A stretch of 64,000 nt of DNA from Ulota crispa (taxonomy: Eukaryota; Streptophyta; Bryopsida; Orthotrichales; Orthotrichaceae), in NCBI GenBank assembly GCA_963920765.1, contig OY987243.1, positions 6,076,001-6,140,000 of the forward strand, read 5' to 3'. Within the stretch, counting starts at the first letter, position 1. Every line of letters starts with the position of its first letter. This document shows positions 17,214 to 49,344 of the stretch, piece after piece. The notes under the pieces were generated by a model, which was not told the DNA's origin, made no database searches, and was given only the letters and a program-made list of their open reading frames with translations. Made by a program: the position numbers and the translations under genes.

Positions 17214-18175
17214 CACAATTGCAAGGATTTGCTCCAACGCTGGAGACCCTTGTTGCTCCTGCCCCATTCTCACTAGCACGCTCACCAATAGTTCAGTGAG
17301 CGTGAACACTATTCTACATGAGTCATAAGAGAATCTCATTCTCATTGGCAAGATGCGTTAGAGGAGAATATATGAGTAAAAGTATACAAACAAAAACTAA
17401 AAGTACAAGAAAGTTTCTAAACCCCACCACCAAGAAGGTCCCACATCATTACTACCACATTTTGAGGTCATACATGAAACCTTCTCATTAGTTGCTAGAA
17501 ATGAGGGAATGCGTCATATGAGAGAACGTGATTTACTAACACATTCTAAGGGCCCCCGACTCCACATGGAAGGGGGCCCTAAATACGTTTGAGAGACTCA
17601 TTTCAAAACCATGTTGGTGGACCCATGTTAGGGAAGAAGACAAAAAGATTCTCACCCAAACAAGTCCAACTGTTCAGTGGGAATGGGCCTTCTGTGACAT
17701 TGAGACTCCTAAAATGCTGCTTCAGGTAGGGGAGTTCTTGGCCGTCTGATATCAGCGGCAAACTATTGCCGTCAATCCGCATTGCAAACTTGCGAGGAGA
17801 ACAAGGGCGCACGGGCCCATCACAAAAATCTGCCAGGGCCGTTTCAGGTCGGGTCAGGATTGGAGAGGAATCCCACTTCATGCTGATTTGGGCTGGGTAG
17901 GCCCGATTCAGAGTCTACTGTAGGTGGGGGGCAAATTTGACTGGTCATTGCCAAATTGATTATTTTTTCAGAAAAAATCAATTTGGCACCAAATTTTATA
18001 ATAAAATAAGCTTAGGCACTTTCAAAAAAAATTGTTGTTATTTGGCATTCAATCAAAAAAAATAGTAGAATTAAGCCTTTTTCTAAGCATCTTCCACTTT
18101 CTAAAATTAGCCCTTGATAAGAAATTTGTAGTAGATTGAACCCTCTTGGAATCAACCTTGAGCTTCCATTGTTAC
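17214..18175. other. No gene seen; short inverted repeats only
   Basis: It holds a short GC-rich palindrome at 17550-17580 (GGGCCCCC / GGGGGCCC) and a hairpin around 17950-17985 (CCAAATTGATT / AATCAATTTGG). No supported coding sequence. Confidence 0.5.
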
Positions 18176-18423
18176 TTAACCCCTGAGTGCCCCAAGACCT
18201 CAAAATGGGGAGCACGTTTTGAAAAATGTCCACATTTGACTCCTATCCTCTTCTTAATGGTAAAATCAAAGGACTTGTACTTTTTCATGTACCTTTAGGC
18301 ATGTGTCTACTACCACTCAAAAAAAGTTCAAGCTATTTGACTCTACTTAGGTAATACTTTTATTGGACTAAGTACACAAGGATATGGATTTGAGTGAATG
18401 TGGCCTGGGCACTCAAGGGTTAA
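18176..18423. mobile_element. TTAA-flanked MITE, piggyBac-like (copy 2)
   Basis: TTAA at 18176-18179 and 18420-18423 flank a 240-b body with inverted ends CCCCTGAGTGCCC / GGGCACTCAAGGG. The end consensus is the same as in the 42.9-47.7 kb cluster. No ORF. Confidence 0.8.
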
Positions 18424-31598: not shown

Positions 31599-33300
31599 TG
31601 TAGATAGGTTTTTACATTCTAAAAGAATTAATAAAATCTATAATTTAAGTTTGAACACAAGGAGGAGGGATTCCTATAGTAGTTTGTAGGTTATTCTAAA
31701 CAACCCAAGAGAATGCTCAATAGAAAACCTTAAGGGAATTTAAGTCCTAACCCTCATCAATTGATAACCTAACATTTGTTATAATTAAGAGTAAGGTAGA
31801 ACTTATTAACAATTGTCTTTGTCTTCACTTTATTTTAGCTTTAGCTATTCCATCAATTTGCAAATCCAGCGTCTTTACTCCATTGCTCCTTCAATGCACC
31901 AACACTACTTCTATAGTGATTCTATCTAATTAGTTCTTCCTTTTCTATAAACTCACAATAGATCATTTTTTATTCTCTTGGAAACTTTATAGCTAATCTA
32001 TTCTATTTTTATTCACTTTGAAGAATTCCTCTCTATAGATTCCGGTTCTATCCTCTCAAAGATTCATGTTTAAACACCCATTGAATATAAATCAGCCCTC
32101 ATGGCCATAGCTATTGTCACTCATGATAATGTAGTCATGTCCTACTCATAGATGGCTATTGACGTTCTCTCAAATCGTCTTTGGATACTATAGATTTAAC
32201 CTTAAGCTTCCACAAAATTCTTTATAGATATTAATCTCTTAGTATAATACTTTCTCATCTCTCACTATCTATAGATTCCATTCAGATCTAAATCAAACAT
32301 TCTCATTATATTGGTTATTGTATTTAATTAATCCCTATGACCTTCATTTGACTTACTATAAATCTCTCAAGTAATTCTTTAATTCAACTATAGATTTGCT
32401 CTCTTTACTTTACCAAGTACAATTTATTTTTTCTCTATATCTTATCTCCAATCCAATCTCTATAGATTCAAACCCAAGTCTTATAGTAGCTCTCAATAAC
32501 CAAACATTAATAAACCAGGCATTCACAATTCAAAGCCAAGTCCATAAATTCAAATAGCCATAGGTTAAACTCTCATCCCAAAATTCCAATCACTACAAGG
32601 AAAATTGTCCAAAATGACAAATATTTGTCCAAATCAACATGGCCAAACCTACAAAAATTATCCAATTTGACAGTTTTTTTGTCATTTTGGACACATTTAG
32701 TCAATTCATACATGTCAATTAGGACACGGTTTCTTGTAGTGAATTGACTCACACATTTACAAATCACAATCAATCTAGTTCAATCCACATACACAGTCAA
32801 TAATAGAAAATATGAAGATTCATTATCTCAATCTCAATCTAGATTCTATTGATTCTATCTCAATCTCACCAATACTCATAAAATTCCAATTACCTTAAAA
32901 ACAACATTCACACATACACGAGCCACAATTGATTCCAATTCAAATTACACGCACAATAATCACACAATAGACAATTTCATACACAAACACCCAATTGCAA
33001 TCTTTTAGAAAAGTATCAACTATATTCAACCGCTCACAAGCATACAAAAATCCTATTGTACCTTCTGCCAACCTTTGCCCTTCAAGAGCCTCTCCTGCTC
33101 ATTCTTTTTCTGCCATAGATTCCATCTTTCTACCCTTTTCCATAGCGGTTAAATAACCACCTTTGCATCCGGCTATAGATAGTAGTGCTCTATTGATTTA
33201 CTAATCAGCCCTTACACAACAAAACCCAGCAATTAACCCATACATTCCAATCGTATTATAGAAAACTGAAGATTACCAAAAAAAAAATTAGCATTCACTA
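31599..33300 (-). mobile_element. Putative 5' LTR of the decayed retrotransposon
   Basis: This lies directly upstream (minus strand) of the primer-binding site and ends in CA at 31599. It is AT-rich with no ORF. The other LTR was not identified in the window, so the left limit is approximate. A CACTA MITE (32591-32741) is inserted in it. Confidence 0.45.
32591..32741. mobile_element. 151-b CACTA MITE
   Basis: Ends CACTACAAGGAAA / TTTCTTGTAGTG with a perfect 3-b duplication AAT (32588-32590 and 32742-32744). The interior repeats TTGTCCAAA-type tracts in inverted order. The ends match the common plant CACTA terminus CACTACAAGAAA. Confidence 0.9.
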
Positions 33301-34143
33301 TATTATCACCATAGATTCTAGACTACACCCACTAAAGCATACACAAGCATTCTAAAAAGTCAATTTAGATTGAAATAAGAAGATATATAAAGCTTGTCAA
33401 CAATCTTGGAGAAATTACTATTTTATTAGTTGATGTTTCACATTAAAATCAATTAATTACAATAGTGGAATCGTGTGTGTTTGATGTTTTATATCAAGAT
33501 TAAGTCATTAAAGAATTCCATTAACTTATTCATTTCATTTCAAAAAAATTAATTTAAGGCTTAATTTTTTGTTATTTTAATTTTTTCGTTCATCTGAGGC
33601 CTATGACATTTTTTTACTCAATTTTTTTAGAATTTGATAAGATTCATATTGCATAAATCTTATTCTATTTGACATTTAACTTAAATGTTGTGCATTACGT
33701 TACTAATATTTAATATTTTCTTGGATTTTTTTTAAAATTTCTTTTAGTATAATGTTGTGTCATTTGCATATAACTTGTCAATAAACTTTGTATCTTTAAA
33801 TATGAAAAAATCATAATTTCATTATTGTAAATATTTTATTATATACTTTAGCACATTCAACACAACAATAAATAAAAATAATGTTAATAGATATTTTTAT
33901 ATTATATTACAAATAAGTTCAAAGATATTTATTATCTCTCCATTTTTTATTAGTAAAGAAGCTGCACTTTTATATAATGACATGATATTTTTCACAAAGT
34001 TTTGATAGTAGTCTATTTTGTATGTAACAACTTCTATGTAACTCCAATTGATTTGATCATATGTTTTAAAAATAAAAATAAAACAAAATAAGATCTTGAT
34101 TATTTTTTCCATGTAACATATGGTTTTTAGATCAACAAAATGT

Positions 34144-36809: not shown

Positions 36810-37009
36810 NNNNNNNNNNNNNNNNNNNNNNNNNNNNNNNNNNNNNNNNNNNNNNNNNNNNNNNNNNNNNNNNNNNNNNNNNNNNNNNNNNNNNNNNNNN
36901 NNNNNNNNNNNNNNNNNNNNNNNNNNNNNNNNNNNNNNNNNNNNNNNNNNNNNNNNNNNNNNNNNNNNNNNNNNNNNNNNNNNNNNNNNNNNNNNNNNNN
37001 NNNNNNNNN
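36810..37009. other. Assembly gap, 200 N
   Basis: Exactly 200 N, probably a fixed-size scaffold gap. Reading frames that cross it are meaningless. Confidence 0.98.
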
Positions 37010-42870: not shown

Positions 42871-43864
42871 TTAATCCTTCATCGTTTGAGCGTGTTGATG
42901 TGACCAATATAATACAAGGTATTTTTTCTTATATTTGGAATAGATTCACACCTTTACTACATTTGTGATCATCAAAAATGTTGGAATACAAAACAATGCA
43001 GTTCTAGTGAGCTATTCAAGATCCCAAATTTAAACTTCTTATTGGTAGCAAATGCCAATTATATGGCAGCATATATACTATGCACTATGGACATTTAACC
43101 CGTGAGCGCCAAAGCCATTTTCACCAAAATTAGGGTTTTGGAAGATCTACAATTTTGATGCATCGTATTTTAGTCAATTGGATGATTCACAAAAAGTGAT
43201 TATTGAAAACAATGGAACATCCACTTTAAAAATGGATTGCAAATTTTGTGAACATTTGACCAAGGGATATGGGAGATTATAACAATTGATTAAACAACAT
43301 GTGATGGCAAAATCTCACTTTTTGGCAAGTAGTTGATATTTAGTGATCTGTACAAAATTCTATAAGCGCCTTATTAATCTCAAAATTTGTGAGTAGCAAG
43401 GTTAGATGTGAATGCATAGACTTGCAAATTATTAAAGATTGTACTTCTTTGTGTGTTAAGTTTTAGGGCTTCAAAGAGCTATTGCATACAAAACAATGAT
43501 TGGCACAATTGGTGAGGGTTGCCACAACAAGGGTTTAGAACATGTTTGAACCCTTGCTAACAAATTTTTTGCTACCACAAAGCACATGCAACAAAGTTTG
43601 CAAGGGGTATTAATTGGTTGCAATCTGTAAAACATTGCTTGCCTCCTTGCCTCTTATGGTGTTCTATCCAATTGAGACTCTTGAGGCACTCATACAACAT
43701 TTTGCTTGACTTGCCATTATTCCACTTACATGGATTGCTTGAATGTCTTCTTTAAGTGTAGTTTATATCAAGATCAAAAAATTAGATATAGTGCCTCAAA
43801 AAGGCTTGTGAAATCCTTGTAAGGACACTTTAGTCCTCTGGGGCGTCCAAGGGTTAAGGGTTAA
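42871..43864. mobile_element. TTAA element b, interrupted by element j
   Basis: The outer TTAA are at 42871-42874 and 43861-43864. The b body 42875-43093 belongs to the 230-b MITE family (see 1308). Its right terminal repeat contains an internal TTAA, into which element j inserted; the three left-over terminal bases GGG (43858-43860) and the outer TTAA follow j. Confidence 0.75.
43098..43853. mobile_element. TTAA element j, nested in element b
   Basis: A 756-b element with inverted ends CCCGTGAGCGCC / GGCGTCCAAGGG and TTAA on both sides (43094-43097 and 43854-43857). No ORF of note. Confidence 0.78.
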
Positions 43865-43871
43865 AATTTTG

Positions 43872-44186
43872 GGACAATTTCATGGATATCCCTGAAGTTT
43901 GCAATCTTTTCATAGATACCCTTGCTTTTTCAGAAATATCACAAATTCCCTTGGACCAAAATATTTACTTGTTTGTTTTGTTATGCATGTCACTTCCTTT
44001 TCCCTTTGTGTGCACACTACTTCTTTCTTCTTATGCGTGTGCACAAAGCAAGAAGAGAAGTGACATGCACAACAAAACAAACACCTGATTTTTTGGTCCA
44101 AGGATATTTGTAATATTTTTGAAAAAAGAGGGGTATCTATGAAAATATTGCAAACTTTAGAGGTATCCATGAAACTTTCCCTAAAT
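43872..44186. mobile_element. Foldback element, TGGATAYCC family (copy 1)
   Basis: Arms: ATTTCATGGATATCC, GGACCAAAATATTT and GCATGTCACTTCC on the left are complemented on the right. The same family recurs at 50131-50450. Confidence 0.8.
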
Positions 44187-44648
44187 TCTTTGCAAAACTA
44201 AAAATTTGCACACTAAGGTAGACACACTGTTCTCTGACCCCTCTCCAATTCTGCATCCTACTTTTGAGGGCTTCTCCACCCATTGTTGAATCCAAAGTGG
44301 AGCAATAAATGCCTTTTTCACAAGTATATTCTGCCACATATTAGGTGCCAAGCTACTTTGAGATGGCTAGGATTGGGACCCTCAAGTGCCATTACATTGA
44401 TTATAGGAACACATCCAAGCAGTTTCAAGGATAAACTAGAGTCGCTAATAAGGACCCTGTGAGTTGCAACTTTGCCCTTTAATATAAAATAATCTACAAT
44501 ACCTTTTTCCACTAAAAATATCTTTCACAACATCTTGTTGAAAGGCTAATCCTACTGATTTTTTCTTGAATTTTCCCAGACCTTGAGGTATCCCAAACCC
44601 TTAAATGGTTAGGTACGCGTGTGTCTACCTTAGTATTGCTCCTGGAGT
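44187..44648. other. No feature recognised
   Basis: Short frames only. May hold eroded ends of the TTAA cluster. Confidence 0.4.
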
Positions 44649-44876
44649 AATATCCTTTAAACATCATAAAGGCCCTTTGCGACCAATACAATATGGGGTA
44701 TTTTTCTTGTATTTGGAATGGATCCATACCTCTACTACATTTGAGATTAACAAAGAAGTTGGAATATAGATAAACGCGGTTGTAGTGAGTCATTTGAGAT
44801 CCCAAGTTGAAATTTCTTGCTAGTAGCAAATGCCAAATATACGGCAACGTATCTACTATGCCCTAGGGACGTTTAA
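44649..44876. mobile_element. TTAA element c (partial)
   Basis: Same 230-b family as copies b, d and e. The left end is eroded (TTTAAACATCAT). Its right end meets the TTAA where element d begins. Confidence 0.6.
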
Positions 44877-45103
44877 CCCTTAAATGACCATAGGGCATAG
44901 TATATACGCTGACGTATAATTGTCATTTGCTACCAATAAGAAATTTTAATTTGGAATCTCAAGTAGCTCACTACAACTGCATTGATCTATTCTCCAACTT
45001 TTTTGTTGGTCTCAAATGTGGTAGAGGTGTGAATCCATTCCAAATACAAGAAAAATACCCCGTATTGTACTGGTCACAAAGGGCCTTTTTGGTCGTTTAA
45101 GGA
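44877..45103. mobile_element. TTAA element d
   Basis: A 227-b element, inverted relative to element c. It begins CCCTTAAATGACC and ends GGTCGTTTAAGGA, with TTAA at 44873-44876 and 45104-45107. Confidence 0.8.
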
Positions 45104-45107
45104 TTAA

Positions 45108-45351
45108 CCCTTAAAGGACGAGGCTACTATAATACATACTATGTACCTTGTTGTATAACTCACATTTGCTACCAGCAAAAAGTTTTAACTTGGGATCTTG
45201 ACTACCTCACTAGAACAGCATTGATCTATATTCTAACTTCTTTGTTGATCTCAAATGTAATAAAGGTGTGGAAGCACTCCAAACACAATAAAAATACCCC
45301 ATATTATATTGGTTGTAAAGGGCTGCTTGGTCTTTTAGGAGTTACTGTAAC
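45108..45351. mobile_element. TTAA element e
   Basis: It begins CCCTTAAAGGACGAGG directly after the TTAA that ends element d. The body is the same 230-b family as d; the right end is slightly eroded near 45345. Confidence 0.7.
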
Positions 45352-45355
45352 TTAA

Positions 45356-45577
45356 CCCCTGAAGGGCCCAAACGCCCTTTGCAGTCGTATGTACAACCAT
45401 ATATATAGACAAATTTGAGCTGCTTTGAGGGCTTTTCAAAAAATTATGCACCTACCATTATACAACCCTTCAATATGTATGATTATAACACTTAATTTCT
45501 AGCTAATTCAAACTTCTAAATATTGGTTGCAACCGTATTTGGTACCGTAGCTCCAAAGCCTAAGGGCTCTTCAAGGG
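45356..45577. mobile_element. TTAA element f (intact reference copy)
   Basis: A 222-b element with ends CCCCTGAAGGGCCC / GGGCTCTTCAAGGG, TTAA at 45352-45355 and 45578-45581. It contains an internal TTAA (ACACTTAATTTCTAGC). That same site holds the insertion of element h in the sister copy g. Confidence 0.82.
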
Positions 45578-45581
45578 TTAA

Positions 45582-46739
45582 CCCCTGAATGTCCCGAAAG
45601 CTCTTTACGGCCGTATGTATGGCCGTATATACATACATATTTGAGCTGCTCTAAGGGCTTTCCAAGTTTTTTTATGCACCCACCATCATACAACTTTTCT
45701 ATATATATGGTTGTAACATTTAACCCCTAAAGGACCAAGCCCTCTTTTTGGCCAAAACCACTAAAAACTGCCACTTCTAGGAGGTTTAGAAAAATGGGAT
45801 TTTATATTTTGTTTTTGGGAAATCCAATCATAGGGTCTTGCCATAGACTAGAAGAGGTACTTGTGGGAAAAAATTCAGCTCATTCCAAACGGAGAGGAGT
45901 GAGATATTTACATCTAAAGTGAAAAAAAAAAGATTTTTCCATGCTGTTCAAAAGCTTCAAAAGCCTTTGACCACTCTTATAACAAAATAAATGCTCTACC
46001 CAAAGTTGCGCTTTATTATTTCCATATAGGAGATCAAGTTAGGTAGGTATGGGAGAATTTTCAAATCAATTGGAACTATAGAACACATGGGAAAAATCAT
46101 TAAATAAAAAGAAGTAGAGAATGAGTCAATACACTAAATTGTTAAGAATTTAATTATGGAAATGAAAAAGCTAATTCCAACGGTGGTAATGTTGTGATAA
46201 ACAATCTACTTCCTTAGGTTTAATTTTTTTTCCAAAATATTGAAAATTGAGTAAATTAAAGGACTTCAAAGTTTATTTTAGAGTAGAGATTCCATAACTA
46301 CCCACAAACAAAAACTCCTCATAAAATTCATGTCATTGATTGAAATCAAATGATTCAAAGCTTCTTGTGAATAAAAAAAATTTAAAGAACCAATTTCAAA
46401 GTTTTGTTTCAAAAAACGTAATTTAAAAAAAAGTTTTTGGGCTGCCCAGACGGGCAATCCTCCCCAAATTTTTATATATTCATGCATAACTTCTTTGTCA
46501 AATGTCGGAATGAAGAAAAAATTAGATGCCCGCGTAGATTTTTGAATTCCCCACCTTCAATAAAAGTTTCAAAAAATCAAACAAAGTAGTTTAGCCACAA
46601 GTACATGCCCAAATTCCAACCTATCCTCCAAAAGGACAATGGTCCTTTAGGGGTTAATTTCTAGCTGATCCAAACTTTTGAATATTGGTTGCGACTGTAT
46701 TTGGTACAATAGCTCTAGAGCCTAAGGGCCCTTCAAGGG
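45582..46739. mobile_element. TTAA element g, interrupted by element h
   Basis: A sister of element f (GTATGTATGGCCGTATATAC, TTTGAGCTGCTCTAAGGGCT). TTAA flanks are at 45578-45581 and 46740-46743. Its two halves, 45582-45719 and 46658-46739, are separated by element h. Confidence 0.82.
45724..46653. mobile_element. TTAA element h, nested in element g
   Basis: A 930-b element with exact inverted ends CCCCTAAAGGACC / GGTCCTTTAGGGG and TTAA on both sides (45720-45723 and 46654-46657). The uninterrupted site in element f proves that a single TTAA was duplicated. No transposase ORF. Confidence 0.88.
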
Positions 46740-46743
46740 TTAA

Positions 46744-47658
46744 CCCTTTAAAGACCACGCAACCATATTTTGGTTGCTGGGAGTGGTTTTTGGCTTGCAA
46801 GTTGAAATCGCTCAACAATTTGGAATTTGGTCTTGAAGTATGCATGTGATCACAAGAATTTTGCATCCATTTGAAAAAATAACAATGCAATTGGGTATGT
46901 GAGTTGATAAATAATGGTGTTTATACGACATGGCTTCAAAATACGTATCCATTTTTTGTCAAAGATGGATCAAAGCAACAACACAATACATCAATTATGC
47001 AAGAAGAATGTCAAATTTCAATTGCATAGTTATAAAAAATTCAAATTGCTTAAGAAATACGCTAGTATTGTTTTCATATATGGTAGTAGTATAATTGTAG
47101 TGTTTGAAGATCTACTAAAATGTTGTTGTCATTTTGGCTTTAAAATTTTTCATCTCGCATTTAAGGATTGTCTTGATTGTTTTCACCAATTGGATTTTCT
47201 AGAATAATTATCAAATTTCTTGTAGAACCGTTTTAGGGTAGCAAAGAAAGTGGGTTTTTTGACCCTTTTTGTCCACTTAGCTACACCTTGTGACTGCTAT
47301 TTTTGTTTATTTTGTGTGAAACTAGTCTTGTTGGAAAGGTGGGAAACCTTGCTTTCTAGAAATGTAAGGCTCTTCTCAATTAAAGCTTGCATGAAAGGTT
47401 AACATTCAAAACTAAACAAGAATGAAACACAAGAGATTTTCCGCATACGACTCACTCAATCATTATAATATTTCACCTCCAACGGTAGATTTAGCTGAAA
47501 TTTTGGTACTTTACAACAAACAAGATGTACTTCCCATTTGTACGGTTGGATTATTGAAAATGGGTCCATATTTGAGTCAATTCCAAATCTAAGCTTATCT
47601 AAGCTTACAGCTCCTGTTTTCAGTGAATTCTGTGAAAATGGGTGTGGTCGTTAAAGGG
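46744..47658. mobile_element. TTAA element i, next to the ZNRD2-like gene
   Basis: A 915-b element with ends CCCTTTAAAGACCAC / GTGGTCGTTAAAGGG and TTAA at 46740-46743 and 47659-47662. It ends about 100 b before the ZNRD2-like start codon, so it forms the gene's upstream region. Confidence 0.85.
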
Positions 47659-47758
47659 TTAATTGTCTTTCTTTCTCCTTTGCAAAATGTCTCCGTGTCT
47701 TTCTGAGCTTGAGCCTACTCTGTAAAGCATTTGTTGTTGCTCGTGGTTGCTCGTGGGA

Positions 47759-49344
47759 ATGGATGCCCCGGCCAGCCCCCCGCCCGACCAAAGCGCCCTC
47801 ATCGCCTCCAAGCTCTTGCAAGGGTGGACTCTGCTGGCCGACTCCTGCCCCGTCTGCCTCACCCCCCTCGTCCGCAATCGCCAGAAACAGCTCTTCTGCG
47901 TCTCCTGCTCGCAATGGCTCTTGACCGAGGACCAGCTCGCCCTTAAACTCCAGGCGCACCACGTCCGCGACTCGCCCCCCGCCAGCCCCACACCCGCCTC
48001 CCTCCCTCCCAAGCCCCATGGTTCCACCTCTGCCTCTGCCAATCACATGCGCGTCGCCAGCCAGCGCGACGACGCCCCCAATTCCGATGAGCGCAGCTCC
48101 AAGCGCCAAGCTAATTCCACCGAGTCACTCTCCGCTGGTCTGCCTCTATCCCTAAAACCTTCTTGCAAATCACGACTCTTTGATTCCTCAGCCCATTTGA
48201 GTTCTTGATCCATCAATCCCTAAACCCTAAACCCTATAATTTTGAGATGTCTTATAAAATTGCGCCGGTCAGAGTGTGCTCTTGATCAAAAAAACCCTAA
48301 ACCCTAAACTATCATGTAAATCATGCCTTTTAGAGCCTCCAGTCGATGTATGCAACTGATCAGCCAGTTTTAAAACGCACCCTAAACCCTAAATTCCGAT
48401 TTGTCTTGTAAAATTGCGCCGGTCAGAGTGTGCTCTTGATCAAGCAAACCCTAAATCCTGAACTATAATGTAAATGATGCCTGTTAGAATCTCCAGTCGA
48501 TGTATGCAATTGACCAACCAGTTTTAAACCGCCGGTTGATTTTTGGATCTGGCTAAATCATTGCTTCTCCTCATCTTTCTGAATTTTTATGAACATGTTC
48601 AGGAGTTTCTTCTAACATTTCTGAAGACACCAATATGACAGCACCTCCTCCGGGGCCATCAGACCAATACCTTCCTAAGGTGCTATTCTGTCTCCAATTG
48701 CTTCTTTGTAAAAACTGAAAAGAATATAGGACGTTTTTTTTTTTTAATGGATGTTAGGTCATTTACTGATTGAAGCAATTTCAAAGTAGTGATGAGAAGG
48801 TTTTGAGGTGCAGGTGCCGTCAACTGTCAATCCATCTGACGTACTCTCAAAAACCCTCTCTACACTGTATCAGAAACTTGAGGTAAGATTGATAAGACCT
48901 GATTTTGCAGAAGCTTAGGGTTTCTACGACTGTTTGCAATGTTTGGATCCAACATGCTTTGAACATTCTTAGGGCTGACTCCAGTGTATTGCATTTAGCA
49001 AGTGATTCTTTAATTTGTTTGTGGTATGAAGGAAATTCGCCAAGCTATTGCTGCATGTCAAGATGTTCGAGAACTACACCAGGTTACTTTCTGTTCCTTC
49101 AGTTGGTTCTGTTTTTCCTCTATCTTTTCAGTGCTGCAGTCTTGTCAATTGGTCTTATTGTTGTTAGCTTATGTCCAAACATACAATTTTGATTTTGAGG
49201 TTTTATATTGGACGTTACTGAGTTTAGTTTGGTGGGGGCATGCAGCTGCTCAGTGCATTGGGGGAGTGCATGCAAGCTATTCAAAGAGCTCAAAATCTTG
49301 CTGATTTACAACCATTGATAAGAGAGGAGTATCATTTGGGCTAG
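47759..49344 (+). CDS. ZNRD2 / p27 (SSSCA1-type) zinc-ribbon protein (5 exons)
   Basis: Coding exons are 47759-48137, 48603-48679, 48814-48882, 49032-49082 and 49246-49344. Phases agree throughout and the product is 224 aa. Residues 12-55 form the family's zinc ribbon: KLLQGWTLLADSCPVC leads into C30-x2-C33, then C47-x2-C50 (FCVSC). The middle is Ser/Pro-rich and low in order. The C-terminal third (VPSTVNPSDVLSKTLSTLYQ, then CMQAIQRAQNLADL) looks helical. In animals ZNRD2 (Sjogren syndrome/scleroderma autoantigen 1, p27) is a small zinc-binding protein of poorly defined role linked to mitosis and centromeres; a plant role is not known to me. Exon 1 is strikingly GC-rich beside AT-rich surroundings, which is why several overlapping false frames appear there. 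The donor of exon 1, G|GTCTGC, is weak but keeps the frame, so it is the least certain junction. The start is the first ATG after the upstream transposon; a TTG 12 b upstream is not needed. Confidence 0.85.
48222..48535. repeat. 154-b tandem duplication with telomere-like motifs in ZNRD2 intron 1
   Basis: Two diverged copies share TGCGCCGGTCAGAGTGTGCT (48261 and 48415) and CCAGTCGATGTATGCAA. ACCCTAAACCCTAAA runs occur at 48218, 48294 and 48381, resembling telo-box motifs of plant promoters and first introns. They may act in transcription; that is inference. Confidence 0.75.

Follow-up and report, generated by a model that had tools for sequence, protein, structure and literature searches.

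Nested non-autonomous elements, probably of the piggyBac superfamily, in the nuclear genome of a moss

TTAA-flanked elements at 42871-47662

The region 42871-47662 of the stretch of DNA analysed here, which is 64,000 nucleotides long and is called the window below, was read directly and searched for repeats. Nine elements have been resolved in it, and they very probably represent a nest of non-autonomous transposons of the piggyBac superfamily in the nuclear genome of a moss. Six of them (a, A2, B, C, D and E) have a length of about 230-242 b when inserts are discounted; the other three are larger (j, 763 b; h, 938 b; i, 923 b). Two of the nine are nested in others, h in E and j in a. The original prediction had counted at least eight elements lying nearly end to end, each bracketed by TTAA, five of them of 220-240 b and three of 0.76-0.93 kb. 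The number and the three long elements agree with our results, but the short elements are six; the row is broken by other sequence at 43865-44646 and by 6 b that separate C from D, besides the nesting of h and j; and, while most ends carry TTAA, it has been lost at the left end of A2 (GTAATA) and at the right end of C (GTTAC), so that the word "each" was too strong.

The short elements split into two sequence groups, a/A2/B/C, to which a dispersed copy (k, see below) also belongs, and D/E. Element a (42871-43864; 235 b without its insert, 230-bp class) has the left end TTAATCC and, once the flanks of j are joined, the right end TTAACCCTTAAATGTCC, which agrees with the left end of B in 36 of 40 positions. 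Element j (43095-43857; ends TTAACCCGTGAGCGCC and TTAACCCTTGGACGCC) sits in the internal TTAA of this terminus of a. A2 (44647-44876), of the 230-bp class and with a decayed left end, is 84% complementary over 225 nt to B (44873-45107; 235 b; ends TTAACCCTTAAATGACC and TTAATCCTTAAACGACC), which has one TTAA in common with A2 and one with C (45104-45345; 242 b). D (45352-45581; 230 b) is the sister of E (45578-46743; 232 b without insert), which carries h (45720-46657; perfect 18-b ends, TTAACCCCTAAAGGACCA). Element i (46740-47662) has the ends TTAACCCTTTAAAGACC and TTAACCCTTTAACGACC, and copies of it were found in two other loci of the genome, full in L033:229-1137 (81.5%) and partial in L030. 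Five TTAAs are each common to two elements: three are shared tip to tip (45104, 45578 and 46740), and two lie seven bases inside a terminus, one of them resolved (43095) and the other (44873) placed by analogy only; the remaining tip of A2 was not found. A recurrent motif, GGGTTAAGGGTTAA / TTAACCCTTAACCC, is present at 43851-43864 and in the genome listing of nearby termini; its occurrence in the window is accounted for by an element that inserted at the TTAA inside a terminus of the CCCTTAAA type.

A search of the window with the terminus pattern at up to 3 mismatches gave 17 matches versus 0.92 expected (at most 3 in any of 100 shuffles). Twelve of them lie in 44873-47662 and none in 42871-44872, where a, j and A2 were called from homology and TTAA rather than from the pattern. 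The further copies announced at 1308 and 18176 were confirmed as k (1308-1549; 242 b), a dispersed B/C-class copy 84% identical to C over 232 nt, and m (18176-18423; 248 b). Only two open frames of at least 120 aa touch 42871-47662, both reaching in from outside, at 47651 and 47659, and Rfam at its gathering cut-offs gave no match in the window. Between a/j and A2 there is an unrelated inverted repeat (43865-44187), with 100-nt arms, 85% complementary and 123 nt apart.

TTAA target, termini and transposases in the genome

The assembly comprises 274.8 Mb in 157 contigs. The terminus TTAACCCYTNANNGNCC occurs in it 31,318 times (15,685 and 15,633 on the two strands), compared with 9 times (4 and 5) for its reversed control, and the 24-mer end of the h type occurs 2,511 times at up to one mismatch, its control being absent. 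If each forward match represents one element, there would be at least about 15,600 elements, diverged copies being missed. The families have terminal inverted repeats starting with CCC, as in piggyBac, with the common terminal consensus CCCYTNANNGNCC; the termini have TTAA at the tip, and the CCCTTAAA variants have a second TTAA seven bases in. The copies compared differ by roughly 10-26%, which suggests that most of the activity is old.

Insertion at, and duplication of, TTAA was established from empty sites. Sixteen end pairs were examined, some of them overlapping or false, and five joined-flank matches passed the filter, of which two were trivial neighbour matches and were dropped. In the remaining three, a related sequence lacks the element and has a single TTAA instead: D has the sequence of E without h (45444-45553; 110 b, gap-free, 84.5%); m is absent from a related repeat at L029:7845-7944 (100 b, 89%); and, reciprocally, the element L029:8002-8654 is absent from a related repeat on the minus strand of the window at 18012-18131 (120 b, 86.7%). 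These three related empty sites, together with the resolved nest of j in a, show that the target is exactly TTAA. The prediction would have failed had the flanks of many copies lacked TTAA; an exact TTAA directly precedes 7,555 (3,781 + 3,774) of the 8,876 (4,405 + 4,471) exact copies of CCCCTAAAGGACCA, the commonest inner terminus.

A search of the genome with the PF13843 profile gave 120 matches at E<=0.001 (best E, 1.3e-73), present on each of C1-C11; 528 first-look candidates were obtained and 116 were scored. The same profile had 0 matches in 14 control genomes, whose kinds are not shown. In a phmmer search the protein of L033, which also matches PF13843, was related to 6x67 ("Transposase", E 4e-20), which we take to be the Trichoplusia ni piggyBac, and to 9c0f ("piggyBat transposase", E 6e-17). 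The alignment to 6x67 covers 307 residues, which at that E value makes it a distant relative. The four Asp columns taken as the catalytic set hold Asp in 19, 14, 18 and 17 of 21 aligned copies; the first two align with 6x67, and the third and fourth were assigned by a known motif. The catalytic DDD(D) of piggyBac thus appears to be kept, with that proviso for the last two columns, and the losses of Asp would fit the decay of old copies. Pfam matches to UBact, ScsC, DUF2380, PRT6 and zf-C2H2_12, far below the cut-off, were ignored.

In order to link these transposases to the termini, wide flanks were read for 20 loci (12 + 8) among the 116 candidates scored, a terminus being accepted at a score of at least 11 of 13. 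By score alone, inward-facing termini were found on both sides of the transposase in 14 of the 20 loci. One of these, L033, is not counted as two-ended because its 5' match (L033:229), rejected as a left end, is a copy of element i, which leaves 13 loci, compared with 3 of 20 for outward-facing termini. This outward-facing control was used because a shuffled sequence, which reaches a score of 11 at only 0.0085 per kb, is too lenient a control when termini of other copies are frequent in the genome. Transposase-bearing elements so delimited are 5.0-7.5 kb long. L029:963-5989 and L031:897-5922 are two copies of one such element (90.5%), the homology of which stops at the termini. The terminal stretches that L041 and L042 share with other copies are of 19-42 b (79-100%) in the case of the short element at L029:8002-8654 and of 27-30 b (87-93%) in the case of members of the commonest class, located in L001 and L006. 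The prediction had called for a genome search for a piggyBac transposase with matching ends and had named, as a result that would refute it, a matching autonomous element encoding a different transposase; what was found between such ends is PF13843.

An independent test started from the ends. Pairs of exact TTAACCCCTAAAGGACCA ends were taken from the C1 listing regardless of genes; five were 5-10 kb apart and three were fetched. One of them, L053:274-7452 (7,179 b), holds a piggyBac transposase, pieces of which (about 110-120 residues) are 56-59% identical to those of L025 and L026. Its terminal regions can be aligned with h, along 213 b (84%) and 361 b (74%). Element h is therefore a shortened relative of a piggyBac element and, being short, non-coding and provided with the ends of a transposase element, it has the features of a miniature inverted-repeat transposable element (MITE). 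Another of the three, L051:279-5369, is a stretch of 5,091 b with perfect TTAACCCCTAAAGGACCA ends, no piggyBac match and a 175-aa open frame on the minus strand, possibly a captured sequence or a nest. A foldback-type relative was also noticed at L005:1501-2248, both ends of which are homologous over 193 b to the same (5') end of L053.

Origin of the nest and alternative explanations

The identity that the prediction had drawn from TTAA and CCC ends is upheld by the empty sites, by the PF13843 transposases located between such ends and by the relation of h to L053. Under this interpretation, a DDD transposase encoded by the longer elements elsewhere in the genome would recognise ends of the TTAACCCYTNANNGNCC form and would move short copies that keep them, inserting them at TTAA, which would then be found on both flanks. 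The known piggyBac transposases cut and paste through TTAA hairpins and act in trans on short copies; by analogy, excision through hairpins, seamless repair and mobilisation in trans may be expected here as well. Since TTAA stands at the tip of the termini, and a second time within the CCCTTAAA variants, old copies are target sites themselves, and the use of old copies as targets would lead to nested elements and to end-to-end rows.

Several results weigh against this interpretation. Only 10 of the 120 transposase matches are free of internal stops, L033 has Asn at the third Asp column, and the transposase of L053 is itself broken, while L051 and L052, the other two TTAACCCCTAAAGGACCA pairs fetched, show no transposase. 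Of 30 transposase places examined for a Cys-rich motif C-terminal to the domain, 5 showed it, in some cases with a stop inside, and Pfam reports no Cys-rich domain in the transposase fragments tried. Among the exact CCCCTAAAGGACCA termini, 1,321 of 8,876 have no exact TTAA. Among the 20 wide loci, a single end was accepted in six and none in one; moreover, matches on single sides were 15 and 18 inward versus 10 and 7 outward, of 20, so that one end alone proves little, termini of other copies being common nearby, and in some loci the end was chosen among candidates by how well the ends agreed mutually or with a second copy. Neither an h-type end nor TTAA-bounded inverted ends were found in the first 20 transposase loci, read with 1.5-kb flanks; these early searches failed because such flanks did not reach far enough and the ends were more diverse, and the wider loci resolved both. 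Finally, the 230-bp classes could not be matched to any parent other than through the terminal consensus, the blastn matches being short.

The last point bears on the possibility that only the 0.75-0.95 kb classes (h and i) are piggyBac and that the 230-bp classes (a/A2/B/C/k and D/E) were moved by another transposase with similar ends. No long partner was found that has more than the terminal consensus in common with B, C, D or k, and this consensus is indeed all that relates these classes to the transposase elements. On the other hand, they have the same consensus and the same TTAA target, including the resolved terminus of a, and wide flanks were read for just 20 of the 116 transposase candidates scored; we consider such a split origin unlikely. 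It is still less likely that all the elements belong to another TTAA-targeting superfamily, the piggyBac transposases being bystanders. Kolobok and Sola3 also target TTAA, but the transposases between such ends belong to PF13843 (models for Kolobok or Sola were not part of the search). L053, selected solely for its ends, holds a PF13843 transposase together with the sequence it shares with h, which contradicts Kolobok or Sola3 in the case of h. Contamination or foreign sequence in the assembly might come to mind given that piggyBac is mainly known from animals. The dispersion of the 31,318 termini in the assembly and of the transposase matches over C1-C11 refutes it, however, as does the interleaving of the copies with other genome repeats, one copy lying about 100 b from a host gene exon, and the chance that it is the explanation is negligible.

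The end-to-end rows could also be ascribed to tandem duplication or to re-insertion of circles rather than to independent insertions, as B stands directly next to C, and D next to E, each pair being of one class. These neighbours are just 77-85% alike in their aligned pieces, however, and of the 50 exact back-to-back junctions listed, all on C1 and up to 28.4 Mb, 2 have the same 17-nt end left and right, so that in this list most junctions would stem from different families inserted independently; an origin of the rows by duplication is thus improbable. Back-to-back junctions at up to one mismatch number 1,421 genome-wide.

As for a possible preference of the copies for each other, GGG follows beyond the far side of the own TTAA in 2,436 of the 31,318 termini (7.8%), and GGGTTAA lies 1-30 b away in 462. 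Occupancy per available TTAA within 30 b is roughly 6-10%, compared with 0.7-1.1% per TTAA side genome-wide, calculated with the density of the window, 8.1 TTAA per kb, and also with 5 and 6 (the fetched transposase-rich loci have 3.2 per kb). Among 100 left ends listed on C1, clustering is 1.4-1.8-fold at 0.7-10 kb and drops to about 1 at distances above 10 kb. A TTAA shared by two elements is not clearly commoner than the occupation of another TTAA within 30 b, and we therefore make no claim that element ends are recognised as such; these figures do not distinguish recognition of ends from local hot spots of a general kind. It can be proposed, tentatively, that mosses hold a large and old piggyBac radiation of many families with one terminal code and tens of thousands of TTAA-flanked copies, in which new copies prefer the vicinity of old ones, although we regard this broader picture as doubtful. 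If new copies did land preferentially at or beside older ones, self-nesting would be a property of this piggyBac lineage, and the figures given here make this question of target preference directly testable.

Host, known systems and minor observations

The prediction spoke of a plant genome, and this can be narrowed. With the PF17538 (LEAFY) profile two exons were matched on C4, separated by about 1.2 kb, and the LEAFY exon in L036 shares 60 of 61 residues with 4bhk (FLORICAULA/LEAFY homolog 1), which we take to be a Physcomitrium patens protein, with 130.7 bits, versus 111.9 for the next chains and 94.4 for 2vy1, presumably Arabidopsis LEAFY. This single marker points to a moss rather than a seed plant as the host.

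PiggyBac, a main tool of genome engineering, is known above all from animals and generally treated as an animal element. The moss elements resemble the members of the superfamily represented by 6x67 and piggyBat (9c0f) in TTAA target, CCC-type ends, PF13843 transposase, kept Asp residues and perhaps, in some copies, a C-terminal Cys-rich motif, whereas they differ in the moss host, the length of 5.0-7.5 kb, the consensus CCCYTNANNGNCC and the thousands of gene-less relatives. The piggyBac-derived MITEs of insects and other animals are likewise short, non-autonomous and flanked by TTAA; in the moss the host is a land plant, and a transposase-bearing relative of one class has been identified. 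The Stowaway and Tourist MITEs of plants are also small, abundant and nested, but Stowaway elements duplicate TA, unlike the moss elements with their TTAA.

Tourist MITEs, for their part, duplicate TAA/TTA according to a study (PMC10004981) that also names PiggyBac among angiosperm MITE superfamilies. Other papers name PiggyBac among the superfamilies in plants (PMC10794571) and among those present in all the groups studied there (PMC4438587). Repeat tables have PiggyBac rows for a brown alga (PMC12477816), a fern (1,230 copies; PMC6890710) and feather grass (1 copy; PMC8319324). The last two share with our elements the label and the land plant host, yet both tables give 0.00% of the genome, whereas in the moss the ends, empty sites and transposases have been shown. 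According to PMC5505980, the insect piggyBac was still untried as a tool in Physcomitrella. No paper on a native piggyBac in a moss was found among the matches listed, Repbase and most of the subscription literature being outside the search. The superfamily is therefore a known one, in a host group (land plants) in which it is little described, and its amplification is large; priority is not claimed. With recognisable termini that number at least about 15,600 on each strand, and with more than 100 transposase matches, this land plant constitutes a native plant system in which the control, target choice and history of piggyBac, by vertical inheritance or transfer, can be studied, and it allows repeat annotators to classify the abundant TTAA-flanked short elements of a moss.

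Some other features of the window were noted. An open frame at 47726-48205 has an Auto_anti-p27 (PF06677) match, its first Met lying about 100 b from element i. There is a run of 200 N at 36810-37009, either a gap in the assembly or a withheld stretch, and one 2-kb bin, 32001-34000, has a strong GC skew (-0.35).

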